Source: Chloroflexota bacterium (GTDB taxonomy: Bacteria; Chloroflexota; Limnocylindria; Limnocylindrales; CSP1-4). From it: 14,028 nt of DNA. The position numbers and the translations under genes were made by a program. The stretch lies in the NCBI GenBank assembly GCA_021785115.1, contig JAJYGO010000285.1, forward strand, positions 1 to 14,028, read 5' to 3'. The notes beneath the pieces are model-generated. The model saw only the letters and a program-made list of their open reading frames with translations, ran no database searches and had not been told where the DNA came from. This document shows positions 1 through 13,836 of the stretch, in pieces (within the stretch, counting starts at the first letter, position 1; every line of letters starts with the position of its first letter).

Positions 1-933
1 CCGACCATCCAGATGTTCCTGTACTCGGTTTCGACGGGCAGCGTCGACTTCGGCTACCGGCTCACCTGGTCCTTCGACGCGTTCACGATCATCCCGAAGC
101 AGTTCTCGCGCCAGTTCGCCAACTCGCTGATCTACGGCACGCTCGCGACCATCATCACGTTCCTGATCTCCTACCCGCTCGCCTACTTCATCGCGTTCCG
201 GGGCGGCCGCTACAAGAACCTGGTCCTCTTCCTGGTCATCGCGCCGTTCTTCACCAGCTTCCTGATCCGGACGATCTCCTGGCAGATCATCCTGGGCAAC
301 AACGGCCCCGTGATCGGCCTCATGCACGCCGTCGACATCTTCCGGGCGGTGCCCGAGAACTTCACCTTCATGGGCGAGCCCGTGGCGGTGGTCTCGGGGC
401 TCGTCTACAACTTCCTCCCCTTCATGACCCTGCCGCTCTACGTGGCGCTCGAGCGGATCGACATCCGCCTGATCGAGGCGGCCCAGGATCTCTACGCGGG
501 GCCCTGGCGACCGCGCGGGTGGCTCTACGGCGCCGTCGGCGGGGCGATCCTGGGCGGGTTCATCGGCTTCGGGATCGACTGGGACATCCCGATCTTCGCC
601 CTCGTCGGCGCGGTCCTCGGCACGATCATCCTGGGGGTCTTCGTCTCGGAGTCATTCCTCCGGGTGACCTTCCCCCTCTCGCTGCCGGGCGTGTTCGCGG
701 GATCCCTCCTCACCTTCATCCCCGCCCTCGGCGACTACGTGAACGCCACGCTGCTGGGCAGCCCCAAGACGCAGATGATCGGCAACGTGATCCAGGCCCG
801 ATTCCTGGAATCAAACGACTACCCGATCGCGTCGGCGCTCTCGATCGTGCTGATGGTGGGGATCATCGTGGCGGTCATGCTCTACGCGCGGATGCTGGGC
901 ACCGAGGACCTCAGCGGAGGGGCAATGCTGTGA
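1..933 (+). CDS. ABC transporter permease, PotB-like (5' partial, insertion in EAA loop)
   Basis: Inner-membrane subunit of a binding-protein-dependent importer of the spermidine/putrescine PotB type. The frame is open to the window edge (the first Met codon is at 13), and the usual first membrane helix is missing, so the true start lies upstream. Counting from that Met, helices fall near residues 37-60, 70-95, 121-145, 222-245 and 270-291. The family motif is visible: EAAQDLYA at 155-162, and RVTFPLSLPG at 217-226. In relatives, and in the next gene, these two parts are almost adjacent; here about 47 residues (166-212) lie between them, forming two glycine-rich hydrophobic stretches (169-188 and 192-212). 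The stop overlaps the next start by 4 bases (930-933). Substrate is inferred from family resemblance and the downstream aminotransferase; other amines or organic acids are possible. Confidence 0.88.
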   Translation, partial: PTIQMFLYSVSTGSVDFGYRLTWSFDAFTIIPKQFSRQFANSLIYGTLATIITFLISYPLAYFIAFRGGRYKNLVLFLVIAPFFTSFLIRTISWQIILGNNGPVIGLMHAVDIFRAVPENFTFMGEPVAVVSGLVYNFLPFMTLPLYVALERIDIRLIEAAQDLYAGPWRPRGWLYGAVGGAILGGFIGFGIDWDIPIFALVGAVLGTIILGVFVSESFLRVTFPLSLPGVFAGSLLTFIPALGDYVNATLLGSPKTQMIGNVIQARFLESNDYPIASALSIVLMVGIIVAVMLYARMLGTEDLSGGAML

Positions 934-1811
934 CCGCCATCGCCCGGGACCTGGCCCCTGCCCGCCCCCGGCCGGGGGCCCGCCAGCGGCTCGCCGCGTG
1001 GGTGGACCGCTGGGGGCTCGCCGTCTACACGGTGGCCGCCGTCGCGTACCTGCTGATGCCGATCGCGGTGATGATCGCCTTCAGCTTCAACGAGCAGGTG
1101 GGCAAGTTCAACTACCAGTGGCACGCCTTCTCGCTGGCGGCCTGGCTGAACCCCTTCGGCCGCCCGGGCATGGAGTCGGCGATCATCACCAGCCTGCAGA
1201 TCGCCTTCATCTCGACGCTGGTGGCGACCGCGCTGGGCACGCTGATCGCGGTCTCACTCACGCGCTACCAGTTCCCCGGTCGCTCCGCCACGAACCTCTT
1301 CATCTTCCTGCCGATGGCGACCCCCGAGATCGTGATGGGGGCGAGCCTCCTGACACTCTTCGTCAACACCGCGCAGGCGCCCTTCGACGCGATCATCCCG
1401 AAGGGGCTCCTCTTCCCGCTCGGCTTCAACACGATCCTGATCGCCCACATCATGTTCAACATCAGCTACGTCGTGGTCACCGTGAAGGCGCGCATGGCGG
1501 GGTTCGACCGGCGCCTGGAAGAGGCCGCCATGGACCTGGGGGCGAACGAGTGGACGACCTTCTGGCGCGTCACGTTCCCCCTGATCTTCCCGGGGATCCT
1601 GGCGGCGGCGCTGCTGGCCTTCTCGCTCTCCATCGACGACTTCGTGGTCACCAACTTCACGTCCGGCCTCACCAACACGTTCCCGATCTGGGTGTGGGGA
1701 TCGATCCGGAACTCGCTCCCCGTCCAGATCAACGTCGTCGGCACCATGATCTTCGGCGCCGCGGTGCTGCTGGTGCTCGGATCCACGCTGCTGCAGCGAC
1801 GGGGCCACTAG
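930..1811 (+). CDS. ABC transporter permease, PotC-like
   Basis: Second membrane subunit of the same importer, 293 residues, a usual length for PotC-type permeases. It starts at GTG 930, overlapping the previous stop as GTGA, with GGAGGGG at 916-922 seven bases ahead, so the start is well supported. A basic, proline-rich N-terminus precedes the first helix (WGLAVYTVAAVAYLLMPIAV). The EAA loop is intact and ungapped: EEAAMDLGANEW runs straight into TTFWRVTFPLIFPG, the segment that docks on the ATPase. This provides an internal standard for the anomalous first permease. The substrate-binding protein and the ATPase are not in the window; an upstream location is likely, since the operon is cut at base 1. 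Polyamine import is the family-based inference. Confidence 0.9.
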   Translation: MTAIARDLAPARPRPGARQRLAAWVDRWGLAVYTVAAVAYLLMPIAVMIAFSFNEQVGKFNYQWHAFSLAAWLNPFGRPGMESAIITSLQIAFISTLVATALGTLIAVSLTRYQFPGRSATNLFIFLPMATPEIVMGASLLTLFVNTAQAPFDAIIPKGLLFPLGFNTILIAHIMFNISYVVVTVKARMAGFDRRLEEAAMDLGANEWTTFWRVTFPLIFPGILAAALLAFSLSIDDFVVTNFTSGLTNTFPIWVWGSIRNSLPVQINVVGTMIFGAAVLLVLGSTLLQRRGH

Positions 1812-1821
1812 GGATCGCGCC

Positions 1822-2658
1822 GTGGCCCGTTCCGACGCGAATCCCTCCCGGCAGGCCACGGGCGGCTACCTGCGCATCGCCGAGGCGGCGGCCATGGTCG
1901 GCGCCAGTCCGTCGCGCCTCCGCCAGTGGGAACGCGAGGGCCTGATCCGTCCATCCCGCGGACCCGGCGGCCAGCGGCGCTACGCGCCGCGCGACGTCGA
2001 TCTTGCCCGCGAGGTGGCCCGGCTCCGCGCCGAGCGCCTGAACGCCCCGGCGATCCGTCGGCTGCTGACCGCGGCCGACGGCCCGGCATGGGACGGGCAT
2101 GCGCATCACCCACCGACCGAGCGCATGGGCGCACGGCTCCGGGAGATCCGCCTCGGGCGGGGCCTCACCCTGCACGACGCCGCCGCCAGGACGGGCCTCT
2201 CGGCGAGCTTCATCTCGTCGTTCGAGCGCGGCCTCTCCGGCGCCTCGCTGGCCGCCCTCCAGCGGCTGACCGCCGCCTGCGGCACCACGGTGTCCGAGCT
2301 GACCCGCGAGGACCCCCCGACCGCCGGCCGCGTGGTGCGGGCCGGGGAGCGGCGCGTGGTGGAGCTGGGCGGGCCCGCCATCCGCATGGAGGACCTGTCG
2401 AACGCGCCGACCGCCCTGGAGGGGCAGCTCTTCGTGCTGGCCGCCGGAGCCCGCAGCAACGGCTGGTACGCCCACCCCGGGGAGGAACTGATGTTCGTGC
2501 TGGCCGGGCGCCTGGGCGTCTGGCTGGGCGACCAGGAGTACTACGAGCTCGCGGAGGGGGACTCGCTCACCTTCCCCTCGACGCTGTCGCACCGCTTCCG
2601 GGCGCTCGCCGCATCCGAGACCAGGCTCATCTGGGTCAACACGCCACCGACCTTCTGA
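1822..2658 (+). CDS. Transcriptional regulator with MerR-like, XRE and cupin domains
   Basis: A 278-residue regulator with three modules in order. Residues 15-82 resemble a MerR winged helix (YLRIAEAAAMVG, then LRQWEREGLIRPSR and GQRRYAPRDVD). Residues 102-160 are an XRE/HTH_3 domain (MGARLREIRLGRGLTLHDAA, then GLSASFISSFERGLSGASL). Residues 195-270 are a cupin barrel (HPGEELMFVLAGRLGVWLG, then LAEGDSLTFPSTLSHRF). XRE-cupin regulators such as PuuR sense small molecules and control amine or amino-acid catabolism; the extra MerR-like reader is unusual. The GTG start lies 10 bases after the permease stop with only a weak AGGG ahead, so translation is probably coupled. Its position inside the operon suggests that it controls the operon, probably including itself. 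The ligand is unknown. Confidence 0.88.
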   Translation: MARSDANPSRQATGGYLRIAEAAAMVGASPSRLRQWEREGLIRPSRGPGGQRRYAPRDVDLAREVARLRAERLNAPAIRRLLTAADGPAWDGHAHHPPTERMGARLREIRLGRGLTLHDAAARTGLSASFISSFERGLSGASLAALQRLTAACGTTVSELTREDPPTAGRVVRAGERRVVELGGPAIRMEDLSNAPTALEGQLFVLAAGARSNGWYAHPGEELMFVLAGRLGVWLGDQEYYELAEGDSLTFPSTLSHRFRALAASETRLIWVNTPPTF

Positions 2659-2668
2659 GGAGGCAATC

Positions 2669-3982
2669 GTGACCGAGGCAAAAAGGATCGCCGCCACGCC
2701 GCTCGATCGCTCGGTGATCCCCGCCGTCTGGTCCCGCTACACCGACCTGGTCGTGGACCGGGGCGAGGGGTCCTGGCTGATCACCACCGACGGCGAGCGG
2801 TACCTCGACTACAGCTCGGGGATCGGGGTCACCAACACCGGGCACGCCCATCCCCGCGTGGTGGCGGCCATCCAGGCCCAGGCCGCCAAGCTGCTCCACG
2901 GCCAGCAGAACATCGTCTACCACGAGCCGGGGCTGCGGCTGCACGAGCGGTTGCGCCACGTGCTGCCGGGCGACGACTGGCAGGCCTTCCTGGCCAACTC
3001 CGGGGCGGAGGCGGTGGAGGCGGCGGTGAAGCTGGCACGGGCCGCCACCGGCCGGCCGGCGATCGTCGCGTTCCGCGGCGGCTTCCACGGGCGGACCGCC
3101 CAGGCGATGGCGCTCACCACCTCCCGGGTCACGGTGCGCGGCGACTTCGAGCCGCTGCCCGGTTCCGTGTACCACGCGCCCTACCCCTACTGCTACCGCG
3201 CCACCGGCGGCCCGCACGACCCGGCGGCGTGCACCTGCGACTGGGAGGCGCAGCTCGAGACGCTCTTCGCCCAGGTGGTGGCACCGTCCAGGGTCGCCGC
3301 CTTCGTCGTGGAGCCGGTCCTGGGCGAGGGGGGCTACGTGGTGCCGCCGCGTGGCTTCCTGCCGCGGCTGCGCGAGATCGCCACGCGCCATGGGATCCTG
3401 CTGGTCGTGGACGAGGTCCAGACCGGCTTTGGACGGACCGGCCAGCTCTTCGCCGTGCGGCACGTGGACGTGGCGCCGGACATCATGATCGTGGCCAAGG
3501 GGATCGCCTCCGGGCTGCCGCTGGGCGGGATCGTGGCACGCCGCGACCTGATCGCCCGCTGGGCGCCGGGGGCCCACGGCGGCACCTACGGCGGGAACGC
3601 GGTCGCCTGCGCCGCCGCCAACGCCACGCTCGACGTGATCGAGAGCCAGGGGCTGGTCGAGAATGCCCGCGAGCGCGGCGGCCAGCTGCTCGACGGGCTC
3701 GCGGCGGTCCGCCCGCGGTTCCCCCGGCTGGGCGACCTGCGCGGGCTGGGCCTCATGGTGGGACTCGAGTTCGTGCGCGCCGACGGCGACGATCCGCGCG
3801 CACCCGATCCGGACCTGGCCAGGCGCGTCATCGCGGCGGCGCTCGAGCGCCACCTCATCGTGCTGTCGGCGGGGAGCTGGGGCCAGGTGGTGCGGCTCAT
3901 CCCGCCACTGGTGACCACGTCCCGGGAGGTCGACCACGCGGTCGCGGTGCTCACCGAATCGATGGAGGTCGCGGGGGCGTAG
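2669..3982 (+). CDS. Class III PLP-dependent aminotransferase (GabT-like)
   Basis: A 437-residue fold-type I aminotransferase of the 4-aminobutyrate/omega-amino-acid group, which moves a terminal amino group to a keto acid. Visible signatures are SGAEAVEAA (111-119, phosphate-binding region), FRGGFHGRT (135-142), VVDEVQTGFGRTGQ (D248 contacts the PLP ring nitrogen), and VAKGIASGLPLGG, where K277 is the expected Schiff-base lysine. GGTYGGNAVACAAA (304-317) matches the conserved region in GabT. The GTG start at 2669 is set by GGAGG at 2659-2663, which begins right after the regulator's stop codon. Together with the permeases it suggests catabolism of an imported amine such as putrescine or GABA. 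Acetylornithine or other omega-amine substrates cannot be excluded from sequence alone. Confidence 0.92.
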   Translation: MTEAKRIAATPLDRSVIPAVWSRYTDLVVDRGEGSWLITTDGERYLDYSSGIGVTNTGHAHPRVVAAIQAQAAKLLHGQQNIVYHEPGLRLHERLRHVLPGDDWQAFLANSGAEAVEAAVKLARAATGRPAIVAFRGGFHGRTAQAMALTTSRVTVRGDFEPLPGSVYHAPYPYCYRATGGPHDPAACTCDWEAQLETLFAQVVAPSRVAAFVVEPVLGEGGYVVPPRGFLPRLREIATRHGILLVVDEVQTGFGRTGQLFAVRHVDVAPDIMIVAKGIASGLPLGGIVARRDLIARWAPGAHGGTYGGNAVACAAANATLDVIESQGLVENARERGGQLLDGLAAVRPRFPRLGDLRGLGLMVGLEFVRADGDDPRAPDPDLARRVIAAALERHLIVLSAGSWGQVVRLIPPLVTTSREVDHAVAVLTESMEVAGA

Positions 3983-6238: not shown

Positions 6239-8308
6239 CTAGGCCACGCGGCGCGTCCGCCGTTCCAGGTAGTCCACCAGCACGAACTCCTCCAGGCGCT
6301 CGGGGCTCGCGTAGAAGGCGCGCCCGCGGTTCATGCGGCTGATGCGGTCCACGAACTCGCCGAGGGCACGCGATCGCTCGAGCATGAACGTGTTGATGGT
6401 GATCCCCTCGCGGGTGCATCGCGCCACCTCGCGCAGGGTCTCCTCGATGGTGCGCCGGGTGGGCGGGTAGCTGAACTCCACGCGCCCGTCCTCGATGTGC
6501 GCGGTCGGCTCGCCGTCCGTCACCACGATGATCGAGCGGTTGGCCGTCGGCGCCGTCGCCAGCAGCCGCCGCGCGAGCAGCAGGGCATGCTGCAGGTTGG
6601 TGCCGTAGCCGCGGCCCTGCCAGGAGAGAGAGACCAGGGTCCGCGGCGCGATCTCCTGTGCGACATAGGCGAAGCCCACGACGCGCAGCGTGTCCCGCGG
6701 GTACCGGGTCCGGATGAGGGTGTCCAGCGCGATCGCCACCTTCCTGGCGGCGACGTAGCAGCCGCGCAGCAGCATGGAGCGGCTCATGTCGAGCAGGAGC
6801 ACGGTCGAGGCCGAGGTGGACTCCTCCGCGTCGTGGACCTGGAAGTCGGACGGGTCGAGGCGGAGCGGCGGACGCACCGGGCCGGCCGCCAGGGCCCGGC
6901 GGGCCACCGCGCGGTCCAGCGTCGCCCGCAGGTCCAGGTCGAACGGGCGGCCGAACTCGTAGGGTGACGACGTCCCGCTTCGCTCCCCGGTCCCGCCGCT
7001 CCCCTGGATGCGGTGACCGCCGAACGCGTCGCGGCCCAGCCGCCCGAAGACCTCGTCGAGTACCTTCTGGCCGATGCGGCGCCGTCCGCGTGGCGTCAGC
7101 TCCAGCCGGTCGCCCTCGCGGGTCGCGTACCCCGCGTCCTCCAGCGCCCGGGCCGCCTGCTGCAGCGCCGCCAGGTCGTCCGCCGACTCCGCGTCCAGCA
7201 GCCGCGCCACCTCGGCCGGGTCCACGGCGGCCAGCGCCGGCGGGTCGTCGGCGGCGGCCAGCTGCTCGCCGAGCCGGTCGAGCCGCTGGAGCGTGCCGAT
7301 CTCGTCGAGGGCCTCCTCGAGCCCGAGCTCCTGGTCGCCGGCGAACGGGAACGCCTCTCCCAGGCCCTGCGGCAGGAGCCGGTCCAGCATCGCCCCGAGG
7401 CGCGCCAGGTCCCAGCGCAGCCGGTCGTCCCGCAGCAGCGCATCCATCAGCGAGCCCAGCTCGGCGCGCTGATCGGGCGTGAGGGACCGGAGGAGCGACT
7501 GCATGGCGGCCATCTGCTCGGCGAGCTGGGCGATCACGTCGTCCAGGTCCCGCGCGCCCGGGAACTGGTGACCGTACCGGGCCAGGAAATCCCCGGCATC
7601 CGGGTTGCTGCCCTCCAGCCGCTCCTGCAGCAGCCGCTCGAGGTCCCGCACCATCTCGCGCGTGGCGCGCAGGTCCTCGGGCGTGGCCGAGCGCAGCCGG
7701 TCGGCCAGTCCCTTGAAGGTCGAGTCCAGCACGCGGCCCCGGAGCCGGTCCACCAGGTGCTGGAAGTCGTCGCGGGCGGCGGGCTCGAGGAACTCGTACG
7801 CCTCGAGGGCGCGGATCTGCTCCCCCACGTCGGCAGGCAGGGCGTCGAGCGCCGCCCGGTGCCGACGCGCCATCTCGCGCAGCATCTCCCGCGTCGAGGC
7901 GTCGATGGTCGCGTCGCCGGTGCCGCCGTCACGTGCCTGCCCGGCCTCGCCGCCGGGCGGCTCACCGGAGGCCATCCGCCGATCGATCCCGGCACGTTCG
8001 GTGTCCACGATCTCCTGCAGCTGTCGCCGCAGGTCGCCCAGCACGTCGTCCAGCCCGTGGCGCCGCAGCAGCTCGCGACGCCGCTCGGCCAGGCGCCGCT
8101 GCAGCTCCCGCAGCCCGGCCCGGCCGCCCAATGGCGAGCCGCCCTCGTCGATCGCCCGCCGGAGCGCCTCGTCCAGGTCGCCGTCGGCCAGCACGTCCTC
8201 GGAGAGCGCGTCGAGCAGCTCGCCGGCGTCGAGATCGTCGAGCCGCTGGCTGCCGTCCCACCGCGCGTACCGCGCCCGCCCGCGATCCGCCCCCCAGGAC
8301 GTGCTCAT
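6239..8308 (-). CDS. VWA-domain protein, partner of a MoxR/ChlI-like ATPase
   Basis: A 689-residue soluble protein with no signal peptide or membrane helix. Its C-terminal third is a von Willebrand A domain (about 500-670) with a full metal-ion-dependent adhesion site: D507-x-S509-x-S511 in TVLLLDMSRSM, T570 in GYGTNLQHAL, and D598 in VVTDGEPT. The first 400 residues are Leu/Arg/Asp/Glu-rich and predicted helical, for example RELQRRLAERRRELLRRHG and the LERLLQERLEG segment, suggesting an elongated or coiled-coil scaffold. A Gly/Ser-rich hinge near 440-455 precedes the VWA part. The start overlaps the ATPase stop as ATGA (8305-8308), so the two proteins are translationally coupled. Such AAA+/VWA pairs (MoxR-VWA, ChlI-ChlD, CoxD-CoxE) remodel or insert metal into client proteins. 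The client here is unknown. Confidence 0.88.
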   Translation of the reverse strand: MSTSWGADRGRARYARWDGSQRLDDLDAGELLDALSEDVLADGDLDEALRRAIDEGGSPLGGRAGLRELQRRLAERRRELLRRHGLDDVLGDLRRQLQEIVDTERAGIDRRMASGEPPGGEAGQARDGGTGDATIDASTREMLREMARRHRAALDALPADVGEQIRALEAYEFLEPAARDDFQHLVDRLRGRVLDSTFKGLADRLRSATPEDLRATREMVRDLERLLQERLEGSNPDAGDFLARYGHQFPGARDLDDVIAQLAEQMAAMQSLLRSLTPDQRAELGSLMDALLRDDRLRWDLARLGAMLDRLLPQGLGEAFPFAGDQELGLEEALDEIGTLQRLDRLGEQLAAADDPPALAAVDPAEVARLLDAESADDLAALQQAARALEDAGYATREGDRLELTPRGRRRIGQKVLDEVFGRLGRDAFGGHRIQGSGGTGERSGTSSPYEFGRPFDLDLRATLDRAVARRALAAGPVRPPLRLDPSDFQVHDAEESTSASTVLLLDMSRSMLLRGCYVAARKVAIALDTLIRTRYPRDTLRVVGFAYVAQEIAPRTLVSLSWQGRGYGTNLQHALLLARRLLATAPTANRSIIVVTDGEPTAHIEDGRVEFSYPPTRRTIEETLREVARCTREGITINTFMLERSRALGEFVDRISRMNRGRAFYASPERLEEFVLVDYLERRTRRVA

Positions 8309-9912
8309 CGCCGGTACGTGCCGCCCCCGCCGACGGCCGCGTGGCGTTCCTTGTTGAGGCGCCGCTGGAGGTGCAGCCCCTCCAGCACGAACTCCACGCC
8401 GGACGCGATCGCGGCGGGCGAGTCCCCGGCGCCCAGCCTGGCCACGGCCGCGCCGAGCCCCGGCACCTCGCGGGCGAGGTGCACGTACTCCCGGGACGGG
8501 ACCATCTCGCCCGTCTCCACCTGGAGCCCGGCGTCGAACGCCGCGACCACCTCGTCGGTCGGGTCGCCGGAGAGCAGGCGCCCGAAGACGGCCAGCACCG
8601 AGCGGTTGACCAGTCGCTCCACGATCCGCTCCTCGGGGATGATGTCCCCGACGGTCTCCAGCTCGATCTTCCCGACCGTCGAGGGCAGCAGCGCCACCAG
8701 GTCGCTCACGCGCGGCGCGGCGCTCGGCTCGCCCAGGCGGACCGCCCGCCGGTACGCGTTGGCCAGGAGCGTCTCCAGGTTCGACGTGCTCACGCGCACG
8801 CTCACGCCGGACCGCTGGCTCACCTCGGGGGCGCGCCGCGCCAGGTGGGAGATCTCGGCCACCACCTCCAGCATGTGGTGCGGCTCCTCCAGGCGCGGTC
8901 CCCCCGGCACGTCCTCGAACCGCATCCGCTCCTGGCGCATGATCGAGATCTCGTCGTCCAGTGTGCGCGGGTAGTGGGTCCGGATCTGGGAGCCCAGCCG
9001 GTCCTTCAGCGGCGTGATGATCCGGCCCCGGCTCGTGTAGTCCTCCGGGTTGGCGCTGGCGACCACGAACAGGTCGAGCGGCAGGCGCACCGTGTAGCCC
9101 CGCACCTGGACGTCCCGCTCCTCGAGGATGTTGAGGAGCCCGACCTGGATCCGCTCGGCCAGGTCCGGCAGCTCGTTGATCGCGAAGATGCCCCGGTTGG
9201 TCCGGGGGATCAGCCCGAAGTGGATGGTGGTCTCGTCGGAGAGGTAGCGGCCCTCCGCCACCTTGATGGGATCCACCTCGCCGATCAGGTCCGCGATGGT
9301 GATGTCCGGCGTGGCGAGCTTCTCCCCGTAGCGGCGGTCCCGGGGCAGCCAGTCCACCGGTGTCCCGTCGCCGCGCGCCGCGACGAGCTCCCGGCCGGCG
9401 GCGCTCAGGGGGGCGAAGGGGTCGTCGTGCAGCTCGCTCCCGGCGACCACGGGGATCGCCTCGTCGAGCAGCTCCACCAGCAGGCGCGCCATGCGGGTCT
9501 TGGCCTGGCCGCGCTCGCCCAGGAAGACGAGGTCCTGGCCGGCGAGGATGGCGTTCTCGACCGCCGGCACGACGGTCTCCTCGTAGCCGACGATGCCGGG
9601 GAAGAGGCGCTCCCCGGCCGCAAGCCTCGCGACCAGGTTCGCACGCATCTCCTGCTTGACGGTGCGCGGGCGGTACCCCGCCGCGCGGAGTTCCCCGAGC
9701 GTGGCCGGTCGGCGGGCAGCGGCGGACGTCCGGGCACCTGCCCGGCTTCGGGCGGGTGCCTCCTTCCGGCCGCGCGCCGTGCCGCGCGCCGTGGCGCGCG
9801 CCGCCGGACCGCCGGCGCGGGCGGGTTCTCGGGCCGTCGCCGGATCGCGGGCGCCAGCCGGGTCGCGGGCGCCGTCTGCCTGCGGCTGGTCGTCTCCCCG
9901 GGCCCGCGTCAC
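8305..9912 (-). CDS. MoxR/ChlI-like AAA+ ATPase
   Basis: A 535-residue AAA+ ATPase of the Mg-chelatase/MoxR group, probably acting as a hexameric remodeller with the VWA protein. Walker A is GERGQAKT (132-139). The Walker B position reads GIFAINELPD (241-250), with Asn in place of the usual Asp before the catalytic Glu247. Sensor 1 lies in VVASANPEDY (N288), followed by SRGRIITPLKDRLGSQIRTHYP, a conserved arginine-bearing segment. Conserved sequence begins at TLGELRAAGYRPR (71 on). Residues 14-70 are low-complexity Ala/Arg/Pro. The GTG start at 9910-9912 is chosen because it overlaps the upstream stop as GTGA and has GGGAGG at 9919-9924 six bases ahead; a longer reading frame reaching about 10200 runs antiframe through the upstream gene and is not used. 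The client protein is unknown. Confidence 0.87.
   Translation of the reverse strand: MTRARGDDQPQADGARDPAGARDPATAREPARAGGPAARATARGTARGRKEAPARSRAGARTSAAARRPATLGELRAAGYRPRTVKQEMRANLVARLAAGERLFPGIVGYEETVVPAVENAILAGQDLVFLGERGQAKTRMARLLVELLDEAIPVVAGSELHDDPFAPLSAAGRELVAARGDGTPVDWLPRDRRYGEKLATPDITIADLIGEVDPIKVAEGRYLSDETTIHFGLIPRTNRGIFAINELPDLAERIQVGLLNILEERDVQVRGYTVRLPLDLFVVASANPEDYTSRGRIITPLKDRLGSQIRTHYPRTLDDEISIMRQERMRFEDVPGGPRLEEPHHMLEVVAEISHLARRAPEVSQRSGVSVRVSTSNLETLLANAYRRAVRLGEPSAAPRVSDLVALLPSTVGKIELETVGDIIPEERIVERLVNRSVLAVFGRLLSGDPTDEVVAAFDAGLQVETGEMVPSREYVHLAREVPGLGAAVARLGAGDSPAAIASGVEFVLEGLHLQRRLNKERHAAVGGGGTYRR
9802..9873 (-). repeat. Short tandem repeat encoding a hexapeptide (GARDPA-type)
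   Basis: Four consecutive 18-base units at 9856-9873, 9838-9855, 9820-9837 and 9802-9819 encode GARDPA, GARDPA, TAREPA and RAGGPA in the N-terminal tail of the ATPase. The first two units differ at only two bases. The repeat explains part of the Ala/Arg-rich tail; it is probably a flexible linker and likely variable in length among relatives. Confidence 0.7.
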
Positions 9913-10826
9913 GCGTCGCCTCCCGCCCGCGGCCCCGAGCGACGCGCGCGCAGCGTCTCGAGCGCCTCGCGCGACGTGCGCCCGGACGCGACCAGCGCCG
10001 CGATGAGCCGCGACCGCTGCAGGTGCTCGTGCTCGAACTCGTCTCGGGCGAGGCCCACGCGCATGGCCAGCTCCGCGGTCACGCCCCACTCGAAGTGCTC
10101 GAGGGCGTCCCGGGCCGGGTCGAGCGTGGCCAGGATGGCCGGGGGACGCCGCTGCAGGTGGCCCGCCGCGTCCCGCTCGAGCGGTCGCACGTAGTGGCAC
10201 GCCATCACCCGCCAGCGGGCGATCTCCGGCTCACCCGCGACGCTCGGGGCGAGCCGGCGCATCACCAGCACCATGCCCAGCCGGCGCAGCTCGTCCGGCT
10301 CCAGGGATGCGGGCGGCGCGCCCAGGCGCGCCAGGACCTGCTGGAGCGAATCGGCACGGATCGTCGCGGCGAGGCCGTAGCCTCGCTGCAGGGCCCGCAC
10401 CAGGGTGCGAACCGCGATGCCGGACAGCCCGCCGGCGTCGTCCGCCGCGAGTTCTCCCGCCACGAGGTACGTCGTCTCCGGGGGAGCCGGCCTGGCCGGC
10501 GGGAGGGCGAGTGCGGGCTCCGGGACCTCCCAGCCGAGGGCCGCCGCGTCCCCCAGCCAGTCGAAGGTCTCCCCGGCGCCGCGCAGGTCCAGTCGCCGGG
10601 TCACCGGCGGAAGCAGGTCCAGGAACGCCGCGAGCAGCGTCCGCGGTCCCTCGCCGGGATCGGGGGCCACCGCCATCAGGGGGACGTTGGCCTCCACCGT
10701 GATCCAGAGCAGCGCGGCCAGTTCGGCGTCCAGCACGTGCCGGGCGACGAGCTCGGGAACGGTGACGGCGGGCGATGGCTCGCGCTCGGGAGGCCACCGA
10801 CCCGCATCCTGCGGGGGACGATCCAC
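9909..10826 (-). CDS. CpaF/VirB11-like secretion ATPase homologue with decayed P-loop
   Basis: A 305-residue protein I do not recognise by name, but whose layout follows the C-terminal half of CpaF/TadA-type secretion ATPases. VTVPELVARHVLDAELAALL (21-40) matches the helix before the P-loop. WITVEANVPLMAVAP leads to PDPGEGPRTLL, aligned with the GGTGSGKTTLL Walker A of relatives, so the Lys and the next Thr are replaced by Pro and Arg. LVAGELAADDA (121-131) stands where IIVGEVRG would be, and GLAATIRADSLQQVLARL (151-168) resembles the TVHANS region, its His also changed to Arg. It is therefore probably unable to hydrolyse ATP and may be structural. First gene of the operon: GTG start, GGAGG at 10831-10835, promoter at 10865-10893. 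The homology is a by-eye inference. Confidence 0.68.
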   Translation of the reverse strand: MDRPPQDAGRWPPEREPSPAVTVPELVARHVLDAELAALLWITVEANVPLMAVAPDPGEGPRTLLAAFLDLLPPVTRRLDLRGAGETFDWLGDAAALGWEVPEPALALPPARPAPPETTYLVAGELAADDAGGLSGIAVRTLVRALQRGYGLAATIRADSLQQVLARLGAPPASLEPDELRRLGMVLVMRRLAPSVAGEPEIARWRVMACHYVRPLERDAAGHLQRRPPAILATLDPARDALEHFEWGVTAELAMRVGLARDEFEHEHLQRSRLIAALVASGRTSREALETLRARRSGPRAGGDA

Positions 10827-11656: not shown

Positions 11657-12697
11657 TCATGCGCCGGCCGGGCGCGGAGCTCCCAGCGTGCGGCCCGGGG
11701 TGGGCCCGGCCGCCGGCAGCTCGTCGCCGATCCCCCGCTCGGCGCGGACCCGTCGGGCGGCCTCCACCACCACGCGCATCTTCTCCCTCGCCTCCTCGAC
11801 CGTGCGCGTCTTCAGCCCGCAGTCGGGATCGACGAAGATGCGCTCCGGCGGCAGGACCTCGAGCGCCCGCCGGATCCCGTCGGCGGCCTCCTCGACCGAT
11901 TCGATCCGGTGGCTGTGCACGTCCACCACGCCGAGGCCGATCGCCTTGGTGAAGGGGACGTCGCGGAACCGCTCCAGCAGGTCGTAGCCCGAGTTCGCCA
12001 TCTCCAGGTCCACCTGGTCGACGGGGATGTCCAGCATGGTCGGGTAGGCGCGCATGAAGTCGCCGTAGCAGATGTGCGTGATGGCGTGCGCCGCCAGCCC
12101 GTCGGTGACGATCGCCATCGCCTCGGCCACCAGCGGCAGCTCGTCCATCCGCGCGGACGCCGCGGGCTCGTCGATCTGCACGAAGCGCGCCCCGGCGGCG
12201 GCGAGGTCCATCGCCTCCTCGTGGATCGCCCTGGCCAGGTCGAGGACGAACTCCCGGCGCGAGCCGTAGTGCTCGTCGAAGCTCCAGTCGGCGATGGTGT
12301 AGGGCCCCGTCAGCATCCCCTTGACCGGGCGCTCGGTGAGCGACTGGGCGTATTGCCACGCCTCGACCGTGATCGGGTGCGTGCGGCGCACGGGACCCAC
12401 GGCGATGGGCTTGTGGTAGTAGCGGTTGCCGTAGCTGCGGACCAGGCCGCCGATCTCGAAGCCGGCCATCTCCTCGGCGAAGTAGGTGGCCATGTCCCCG
12501 CGGTACATCTCGCCGTCGACCAGGATGTCGACGCCGAGCTCCTCCTGGAAGCGGATCCAGTCCTCCGTGGCGCGCCGCTCGAGCGCGTGCAGCTCCTCGT
12601 CACCCAGGCGCCCGGCGGCGTGCTCGGCGCGGGCCTTCACGAGCTCCGGCGGCTTGGGGAACGATCCGACCGAGGTGGTCCAGAGTCCGTTGCTCAT
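11657..12697 (-). CDS. Core MetE-type methyltransferase (single catalytic barrel)
   Basis: A 346-residue protein equal to the C-terminal catalytic barrel of cobalamin-independent methionine synthase (full MetE is about 750 residues). All zinc ligands can be placed: H198 and C200 in ITHICYGDF, E222 in LEMANSG, and C283 in VDPDCGLKTR. FVQIDEPA (162-169) holds the substrate Asp166. Core-MetE proteins of archaea and of Dehalococcoides make methionine from homocysteine using a corrinoid methyl donor rather than folate; the same donor is possible here, but no corrinoid protein gene is visible. A thiol methyltransferase with another substrate is the alternative. The start is well set by GGAGGAGGAG at 12704-12713 and overlaps the upstream stop as ATGA. 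The last 20 residues are Pro/Gly-rich and probably disordered. Confidence 0.88.
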   Translation of the reverse strand: MSNGLWTTSVGSFPKPPELVKARAEHAAGRLGDEELHALERRATEDWIRFQEELGVDILVDGEMYRGDMATYFAEEMAGFEIGGLVRSYGNRYYHKPIAVGPVRRTHPITVEAWQYAQSLTERPVKGMLTGPYTIADWSFDEHYGSRREFVLDLARAIHEEAMDLAAAGARFVQIDEPAASARMDELPLVAEAMAIVTDGLAAHAITHICYGDFMRAYPTMLDIPVDQVDLEMANSGYDLLERFRDVPFTKAIGLGVVDVHSHRIESVEEAADGIRRALEVLPPERIFVDPDCGLKTRTVEEAREKMRVVVEAARRVRAERGIGDELPAAGPTPGRTLGAPRPAGA

Positions 12698-13836
12698 GGC
12701 CGGCTCCTCCTCCGTGCGGCAGCCCCCGGTCGCTCGGAGGGCGGCTGGTAGAACCCGAGGGCGGCGCTCCGCGCGTCGACCGCGCGTGGGTCGATCACCT
12801 TCGCGAGCTCCTCCGGGTCCGTGATGGCCGCCTTGCGGGCGGCCTCGCCGAGCGCCCGGACCTTCGCCCTGGCACGGTCGCGGGGCAGGTACTCCAGGCT
12901 CGTGGAGGGAGCGAGCGCGACCCGCTCCAGCCCGCGCGACCCGGTGGAGGCCGCGTAGTGGGCCGCCCAGATCATCACCGGCTCGTCGTCCGGGCGCGTG
13001 TTGCGGGCGTCCGCGACGCCGCACACGATGCCGCGCTCGCGCGGCGCCTGGGCGATCAGCTCCCAGTTGCCCGGCCCGGCTATCAGGTCGAACAGGTAGC
13101 TTCGGAACGGCAGATCGAAGAGCAGTGCCGGGCCGGCCGCCACGGCGTCGCCCATCGTCACCGACAGGCACAGGTGGGCGTCGTCCAGTCCCGCGGTCGC
13201 GCGGCGGAGTGCCTCGGCCGCCAGGGCGCGTTCGGCGTCGTCCTCGGCCCCGATGAGCGTCAGCGCGTTCTCGTCGAGCTGGATCACCGGGGTGCCGGCG
13301 GCATGCAGCGCGCGCAGCTCGGCGTTCACGGCCTCGGCGAGGGCCAGCGTCAGCCGCTCGCGCCCCACGGTCCCCGCGTCCGAGAGACGCCCCAGGGTGT
13401 AGGGCCCGACCAGGCACTGCTTGACCGGCGGAGCGGCCGTCCCGCGCTCCGCGGCGAGCAGCGCCGCCGTCTCCTGCGCGAAGCGCCAGTCGTCGACCGT
13501 GACGGGGCGTTCCCAGCGGGGCTCCTCCGCGGCACGCGGCTGGCGGAAGTAGGTGTTGGTGTCGAAGTAGCGCAGGAGCCCCGTGATCTCGAACCCGGCG
13601 AGCCCCCGAGCGACCGCCGTCTGCTGGTCCTCCCAGCGGACCTGGCCGTCGGTGAGGAGCTCCAGGCCGGCGTCCATCTGCTCCGCCATCACCTCGCGGA
13701 CCAGCTCGTCCTGCGTCTCGCGGAACGCGGCGTCGTCGATCTCGCCGCGCTCCAGCCGGGCGTGGGCGGCACGCAGCCGGAAGGGCTCTCCTGGAAGCGG
13801 GGTGCGCGGGTAGGCACCGACGAGCGTGGCGAACAT
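12694..13836 (-). CDS. MetE-like barrel paralogue with altered zinc site
   Basis: A 380-residue homologue of the next gene, sharing its landmarks: TLVGAYPRTP (4-13), LELLTDGQVRWED (58-70), GFEITGLLRYFDTNTYF (81-97), VKQCLVGPYTLGRLS (138-152), and VIQLDENALTL (184-194). The zinc pair HLC is kept (H221, C223 in HLCLSVTMGD), but the Glu position appears to be Asp250, and the final Cys motif (PDCGLKTR in the neighbour) reads PSTSLEYLP, so that ligand is lost. It may use a different metal set, a different methyl donor, or act as a partner subunit to the intact barrel. The ATG start has AGGAG at 13842-13846, five bases ahead, and the stop overlaps the next start, so both proteins are made together. 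Functional class beyond the MetE superfamily is uncertain. Confidence 0.8.
   Translation of the reverse strand: MFATLVGAYPRTPLPGEPFRLRAAHARLERGEIDDAAFRETQDELVREVMAEQMDAGLELLTDGQVRWEDQQTAVARGLAGFEITGLLRYFDTNTYFRQPRAAEEPRWERPVTVDDWRFAQETAALLAAERGTAAPPVKQCLVGPYTLGRLSDAGTVGRERLTLALAEAVNAELRALHAAGTPVIQLDENALTLIGAEDDAERALAAEALRRATAGLDDAHLCLSVTMGDAVAAGPALLFDLPFRSYLFDLIAGPGNWELIAQAPRERGIVCGVADARNTRPDDEPVMIWAAHYAASTGSRGLERVALAPSTSLEYLPRDRARAKVRALGEAARKAAITDPEELAKVIDPRAVDARSAALGFYQPPSERPGAAARRRSRP

Follow-up and report, generated by a model that had tools for sequence, protein, structure and literature searches.

A glycine-rich two-helix hairpin interrupts the EAA coupling loop of a PotB-type permease in Chloroflexota

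In type I ATP-binding cassette (ABC) importers ATP use drives transport through the EAA loop of the permease, a contact generally regarded as a single short unit of fixed form, with the uninterrupted pattern EAA---G---------I-LP. How, then, can a permease carry a long segment inside this loop? The case considered here is a PotB-like permease gene at the start of a 14,028-nucleotide stretch of DNA from a Chloroflexota bacterium (contig JAJYGO010000285.1; the whole stretch is called the window). Frame +1 of the window reads RLIEAAQDLYAGPW, in which E159 (window numbering) begins at 475 and W169 finishes at 507. After EAAQDLYAGPW come the 49 residues RPRGWLYGAVGGAILGGFIGFGIDWDIPIFALVGAVLGTIILGVFVSES at 508-654, followed by FLRVTFPLSLPG from 655, so that the EAA loop is interrupted by 49 residues standing in place of 2. 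The spacing from 'EAAxDL' to Phe is 7 residues in insert-free relatives and 54 in the window's PotB, and the net insertion is therefore 47 residues, or 141 bases. This length agrees with a reading made beforehand from the letters alone (the sequence-only reading), which had placed an in-frame insertion of about 47 residues at 508..648; its description of two hydrophobic Gly-rich stretches with a short turn, breaking the EAA loop, is borne out by the sequence and by the structure model. It had also pointed to an unbroken motif in the neighbouring permease, and the PotC loop indeed reads EAAMDLGANEWTTFWRVTFP without interruption. Among 21 PF00528 loci of the same genome, the 11 distinct EAA loops readable by pattern (PotC included) were all normal, with 20 residues from E/D to P.

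The fold was read from an AlphaFold2 model of a homologue 96% identical to the window's PotB, converted to window coordinates with a 31-residue offset (Table 1). The model has the type I importer permease fold with an EAA coupling helix, and it aligns with 270 of the 273 residues of E. coli PotB at 31% identity, the two hairpin helices being extra. An intact modelled coupling helix had been proposed beforehand as a check, and the EAA helix is kept in this model of the single permease. In the reading that we consider likely, the gene product is a spermidine/putrescine-family ABC importer permease of PotB type whose EAA loop bears, directly behind an intact coupling helix, an accessory membrane hairpin of two Gly-rich helices, and this hairpin had one origin followed by repeated loss or exchange. 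Both hairpin feet would be cytoplasmic and, because the number of added helices is even, the remaining topology would be unaltered. Judging from the model and from an unchanged PotA (see below), the coupling helix would dock on PotA as in relatives. The second loop helix would begin at the hairpin foot, and its first exposed residue is aliphatic or Thr, not Arg, presumably as a result of packing against the hairpin or lipid. The hairpin itself would be accessory and dispensable, stabilising or anchoring the permease beside its core; it would have arisen in one Chloroflexota group and later been lost, or been replaced by the insert-free loop, several times.

In the homologue search, which scored 8000 candidates, all of the best 120 listed carry the insert at the same site (116 read by pattern, 4 by eye); where names are given, they are of the 'spermidine/putrescine transport system permease' or 'ABC transporter permease' kind. 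A scan of named genomes gave at least 593 stretches, of which 369 were confirmed and 80 loci kept; the insert is present in 29 of these 80 and absent from 51. The sequence-only reading would have been supported by homologues with the insert in several genomes and abandoned if no relatives had it; relatives in many genomes share it. All 29 insert-bearing loci are named as Chloroflexi, Chloroflexota or Limnocylindrales (CSP1-4 included), save one 'Anaerolinea sp.', and the 51 insert-free loci include Actinomycetota, Mesorhizobium, one Gemmatimonadales metagenome-assembled genome (MAG) and two Chloroflexi. Within the window's own family (f1), 33 genomes were listed in a 400-genome sample of the phylum: 12 have the insert, 13 a close insert-free orthologue, 3 weak matches only and 5 none.

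Two single cases were recorded alongside this survey. One insert-bearing homologue (P0088) is named as a Candidatus Sulfomarinibacteraceae MAG, outside Chloroflexota, which would reflect misbinning or transfer. At L037:5120-7690 (the same gene as L014, G203:C153), an insert-bearing PotB continues in frame, as one open frame, into a C-terminal PotC part that includes the PotC EAA loop; this PotB-PotC fusion either arose by a genuine deletion or results from a collapse in the assembly.

Across the 29 insert-bearing rows of the PotB tree described below, the segment is 49 or 58-60 residues long and always in frame, with most of the variation at the hairpin tip. One or two Arg lie within its first four residues in 29/29 rows, no Lys or Arg lies between its ends in 24/29, and its Gly content is 12-29%; the segment retains its helix lengths, its hydrophobicity and its entry motif YAGPWR..G. 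The ratio of nonsynonymous to synonymous substitution rates (dN/dS) in 15 close pairs had a median of 0.39 in the insert (range 0.12-0.94) against 0.12 in the core (range 0.04-0.29); the insert exceeded the core in every pair yet stayed below 1 in all 15. This pattern identifies the insert as a protein segment under selection, looser than that on the core, and identity is likewise lower in the insert (0.43) than in the core (0.67). Of three inserts compared with the Pfam Gly-zipper profiles PF05433 and PF13488, two matched weakly (best E 2.6e-4, all below gathering scores) and the one with a long tip matched neither; the likeness is probably one of shared composition only. An assembly chimera or spliced element was rejected, given the many independent assemblies, the protein-like substitutions and a search of the window against Rfam at gathering scores that returned no match.

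The history of the insert was followed on two trees. The PotB tree comprised 85 rows (29 with and 56 without the insert) with the insert columns dropped, and left out L133 (a copy of L038), the fragments L034 and L074, the fused gene L037 and 12 distant rows; L067 and L072 were assigned to the window's family by tree position, not by family code. A second, 'quick' tree without bootstrap was built from PotA, PotD and PotC (55 rows, PotB excluded). Insert-bearing and insert-free rows interleave in both and do not form two clades: the PotB tree needs 7 changes of state, 5 of them forced by starred branches, and the partner tree needs 5, all forced. Operon order is identical in both states where contigs extend far enough. 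The idea that the insertion marks a distinct transporter subclass, put forward in the sequence-only reading, does not survive this comparison, in which the two states share operon order and interleave with at least five changes. By our own count the partner tree alone is compatible with about 5 gains, or with 1 gain and 5-6 losses. Insert identity falls as core identity falls (correlation 0.79 over all pairs and 0.51 between groups, with between-group insert identities of 0.34-0.47), and this would speak for one old origin. The insert-free rows share the exact loop length and Arg251 (15/15), and when insert-free orphans were compared in sliding windows with other insert-free rows and with insert-bearing sisters, the 8 highest of 85 windows all covered the junction (the mean difference was +0.03 in the best window and -0.08 in the median one, and single rows ranged from -0.05 to +0.09 in the 8 top windows); these features would speak for local exchange or convergence. 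These results are compatible both with a single early gain followed by several losses and with operons exchanging the segment.

Residues that change with the insert were compared column by column between the 29 insert-bearing and 15 insert-free rows of one clade, in five sister contrasts. PotB residue 251 is Arg in 15/15 insert-free rows and A, I, L, M, T or V in 29/29 insert-bearing rows, consistently in 5/5 contrasts; among the listed homologues it is never Arg in the 119 of 120 read by pattern, and is Ile, by eye, in the last. In a sign-flip control with 15 alternatives, the strict threshold yielded no column in any of them; under the lax one, PotB gave 1 column observed vs a mean of 0.07 (maximum 1), and PotC 0 observed (maximum 1). 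More distant insert-free relatives have mostly Leu at this position, some Arg or Gln, and Arg is therefore no general need of an unbroken loop. In PotA, no column of 352 reached a difference of 0.7 (best 0.55) and none of 287 followed the insert in all five contrasts, an absence of signal, not proof, that argues for a PotA side unaffected by the insert. Two PotC and three PotD columns reached differences of 0.7-0.79, none in all five contrasts.

Several observations weigh against an accessory hairpin of single origin. Model confidence drops to about 75 at residues 191-200, the foot must get from the coupling helix to the membrane in few residues, and the hairpin could possibly lie only partly in the membrane. 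PotB Tyr89/Phe and Ser258/Ala each differ with the insert in 3/5 contrasts, and simple deletion does not easily explain some five losses that each brought back Arg251 and the exact length of the loop. The loop could also be an exchangeable cassette: local recombination would swap it between related operons in two forms, one bearing the hairpin and one lacking it, each paired with the residue 251 that fits it, and the hairpin would tune ATPase coupling or make the importer responsive to the membrane or a partner; we regard this version as rather unlikely. The location of the hairpin inside the coupling loop, beside the coupling helix, together with the lowered confidence around the junction and the changes at residue 251 and, in part, at 89 and 258, could instead mean that it reshapes coupling and alters how the EAA helix meets PotA, giving a mechanistically different transporter subclass. 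We judge this improbable, since the model preserves the coupling helix and covers nearly all of E. coli PotB, no PotA column separates the states and both states interleave in one operon family. The sequence-only reading had left two options side by side; of these, a hairpin that re-enters the membrane next to the core is a better fit than a coupling interface of altered shape, given the nearly complete match to E. coli PotB and the lack of a PotA column that follows the insert.

That the hairpin is a near-neutral passenger, tolerated and drifting without a role, would account for its relaxed selection, low identity and patchy presence, but appears quite improbable when dN/dS stays below 1 in every pair, the helix lengths, hydrophobicity and entry motif are conserved, and the insert persists in all 120 listed homologues. 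An exact, patchy insertion at a single site of a conserved loop could also look like an artefact or a spliced element (an assembly chimera, an intron or something intein-like) absent from the mature protein. To this we assign a nearly negligible probability, as many independent assemblies carry the insert, it is in frame in every case read, its substitutions are protein-like and the window has no Rfam match; it is also far too short for an intein. We conclude that the hairpin is real, and conserved but probably dispensable, and that the importer permease whose coupling loop holds it is ordinary in other respects.

Table 1. Positions in the window of the importer genes, their neighbours and the parts of the interrupted loop (residue numbers of the whole 341-residue PotB).
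Feature	Position	Strand	Basis and remarks
PotB-like permease gene	1..933	+	open reading frame; 5' end cut by the window, first 31 codons absent
EAA coupling helix, residues 186-195 of 341	463..492	+	AlphaFold2 model
49-residue segment in place of 2 residues of insert-free relatives	508..654	+	sequence, alignments
First hairpin helix, residues 203-222	514..573	+	model; block pLDDT (predicted local distance difference test) 81-90
Second hairpin helix, residues 227-245	586..642	+	model; block pLDDT 82-90
Second EAA-loop helix, residues 248-257, ahead of next membrane helix	649..678	+	model
Leu251 codon (Arg in every insert-free row of the compared clade)	658..660	+	column comparison, sign-flip control
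PotC-like partner permease	930..1811	+	open reading frame, profile matches; EAA loop unbroken
MerR / Xre / cupin regulator	1822..2658	+	second part matches PuuR, 57.8 bits, below cut-off 211
Class III aminotransferase, adjoining the importer genes	2669..3982	+	profile matches

The whole potB gene, of 341 codons, lies at L002:11837-12862 (contig G000:C255). At this locus and in relatives the operon order is potA - potD - potB - potC, and PotA, PotC and the binding protein are all present. The best NCBIfam family for the window's PotB is PotB PRK09497.1 (166 bits; the equivalog cut-off of 348 is not reached), and its PDB match is E. coli PotB. This family match, together with the nearby regulator and aminotransferase, suggests that the importer may transport polyamines. 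PF00528 (BPD_transp_1) scored 22.9 bits against the window fragment (310/341 residues), below the gathering score of 26.4, and the insert-bearing potB gene was not among the matches of a whole-genome scan with this profile. As 104 of the 120 listed homologues carry a precomputed PF00528 domain, we attribute the miss to the insert and the cut end.

Further features were noted around the operon. The binding protein adjoining potB (L002:10408-11763) starts SRRNLLKRGG and has LAAC, resembling a Tat-exported lipoprotein, with a sub-threshold Pfam TAT signal (E 0.031). In assembly G000 the end of contig C255 recurs at the start of C184, and this 127-base overlap is joined in the window (1818-1944); G000 and the window mismatch at 1/1944 and 8/3000 bases compared. 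On the minus strand, a VWA-domain protein adjoins an AAA ATPase at 6242-10200 (domains from profile search), a pair which we take to be of the MoxR/VWA or chelatase kind, and at 11660-13836 lie two adjacent members of the cobalamin-independent methionine synthase superfamily, of which one matches Meth_synt_2 strongly (284 bits) and the other is divergent.

About 47 residues have thus been put into and taken out of the EAA loop while the partner proteins stayed alike. This natural experiment on the tolerance of a conserved loop offers matched pairs for testing which of its parts coupling needs, and shows why the Pfam permease profile may miss such permeases. A literature search of titles and abstracts, with most subscription papers outside it, found no description of an EAA loop that holds a membrane hairpin. 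PMC8603345 and PMC1810536 describe coupling helices of the ordinary kind and an analogous loop.

Among known systems, a close counterpart is PotB from the spermidine importer PotD-PotABC of E. coli (8y5f; PMC11414716), which the window's PotB resembles in fold, in the EAA coupling helix and in its partners PotA, PotC and PotD; the E. coli protein lacks the hairpin that the window's PotB has, its loop running EAARDLGASKLQTFIRI unbroken. The Pfam Gly-zipper hairpins share a Gly-spaced hydrophobic pattern with the insert, but differ in that the scores are sub-threshold. The PotB orthologues that lack the insert in the same Chloroflexota family (L114-L126, L067 and L072) share the operon order, the EAAxDLYA start and the FxRVTxPL end of the loop, and differ in having 2 residues for 49 and Arg251 in each of the 15.
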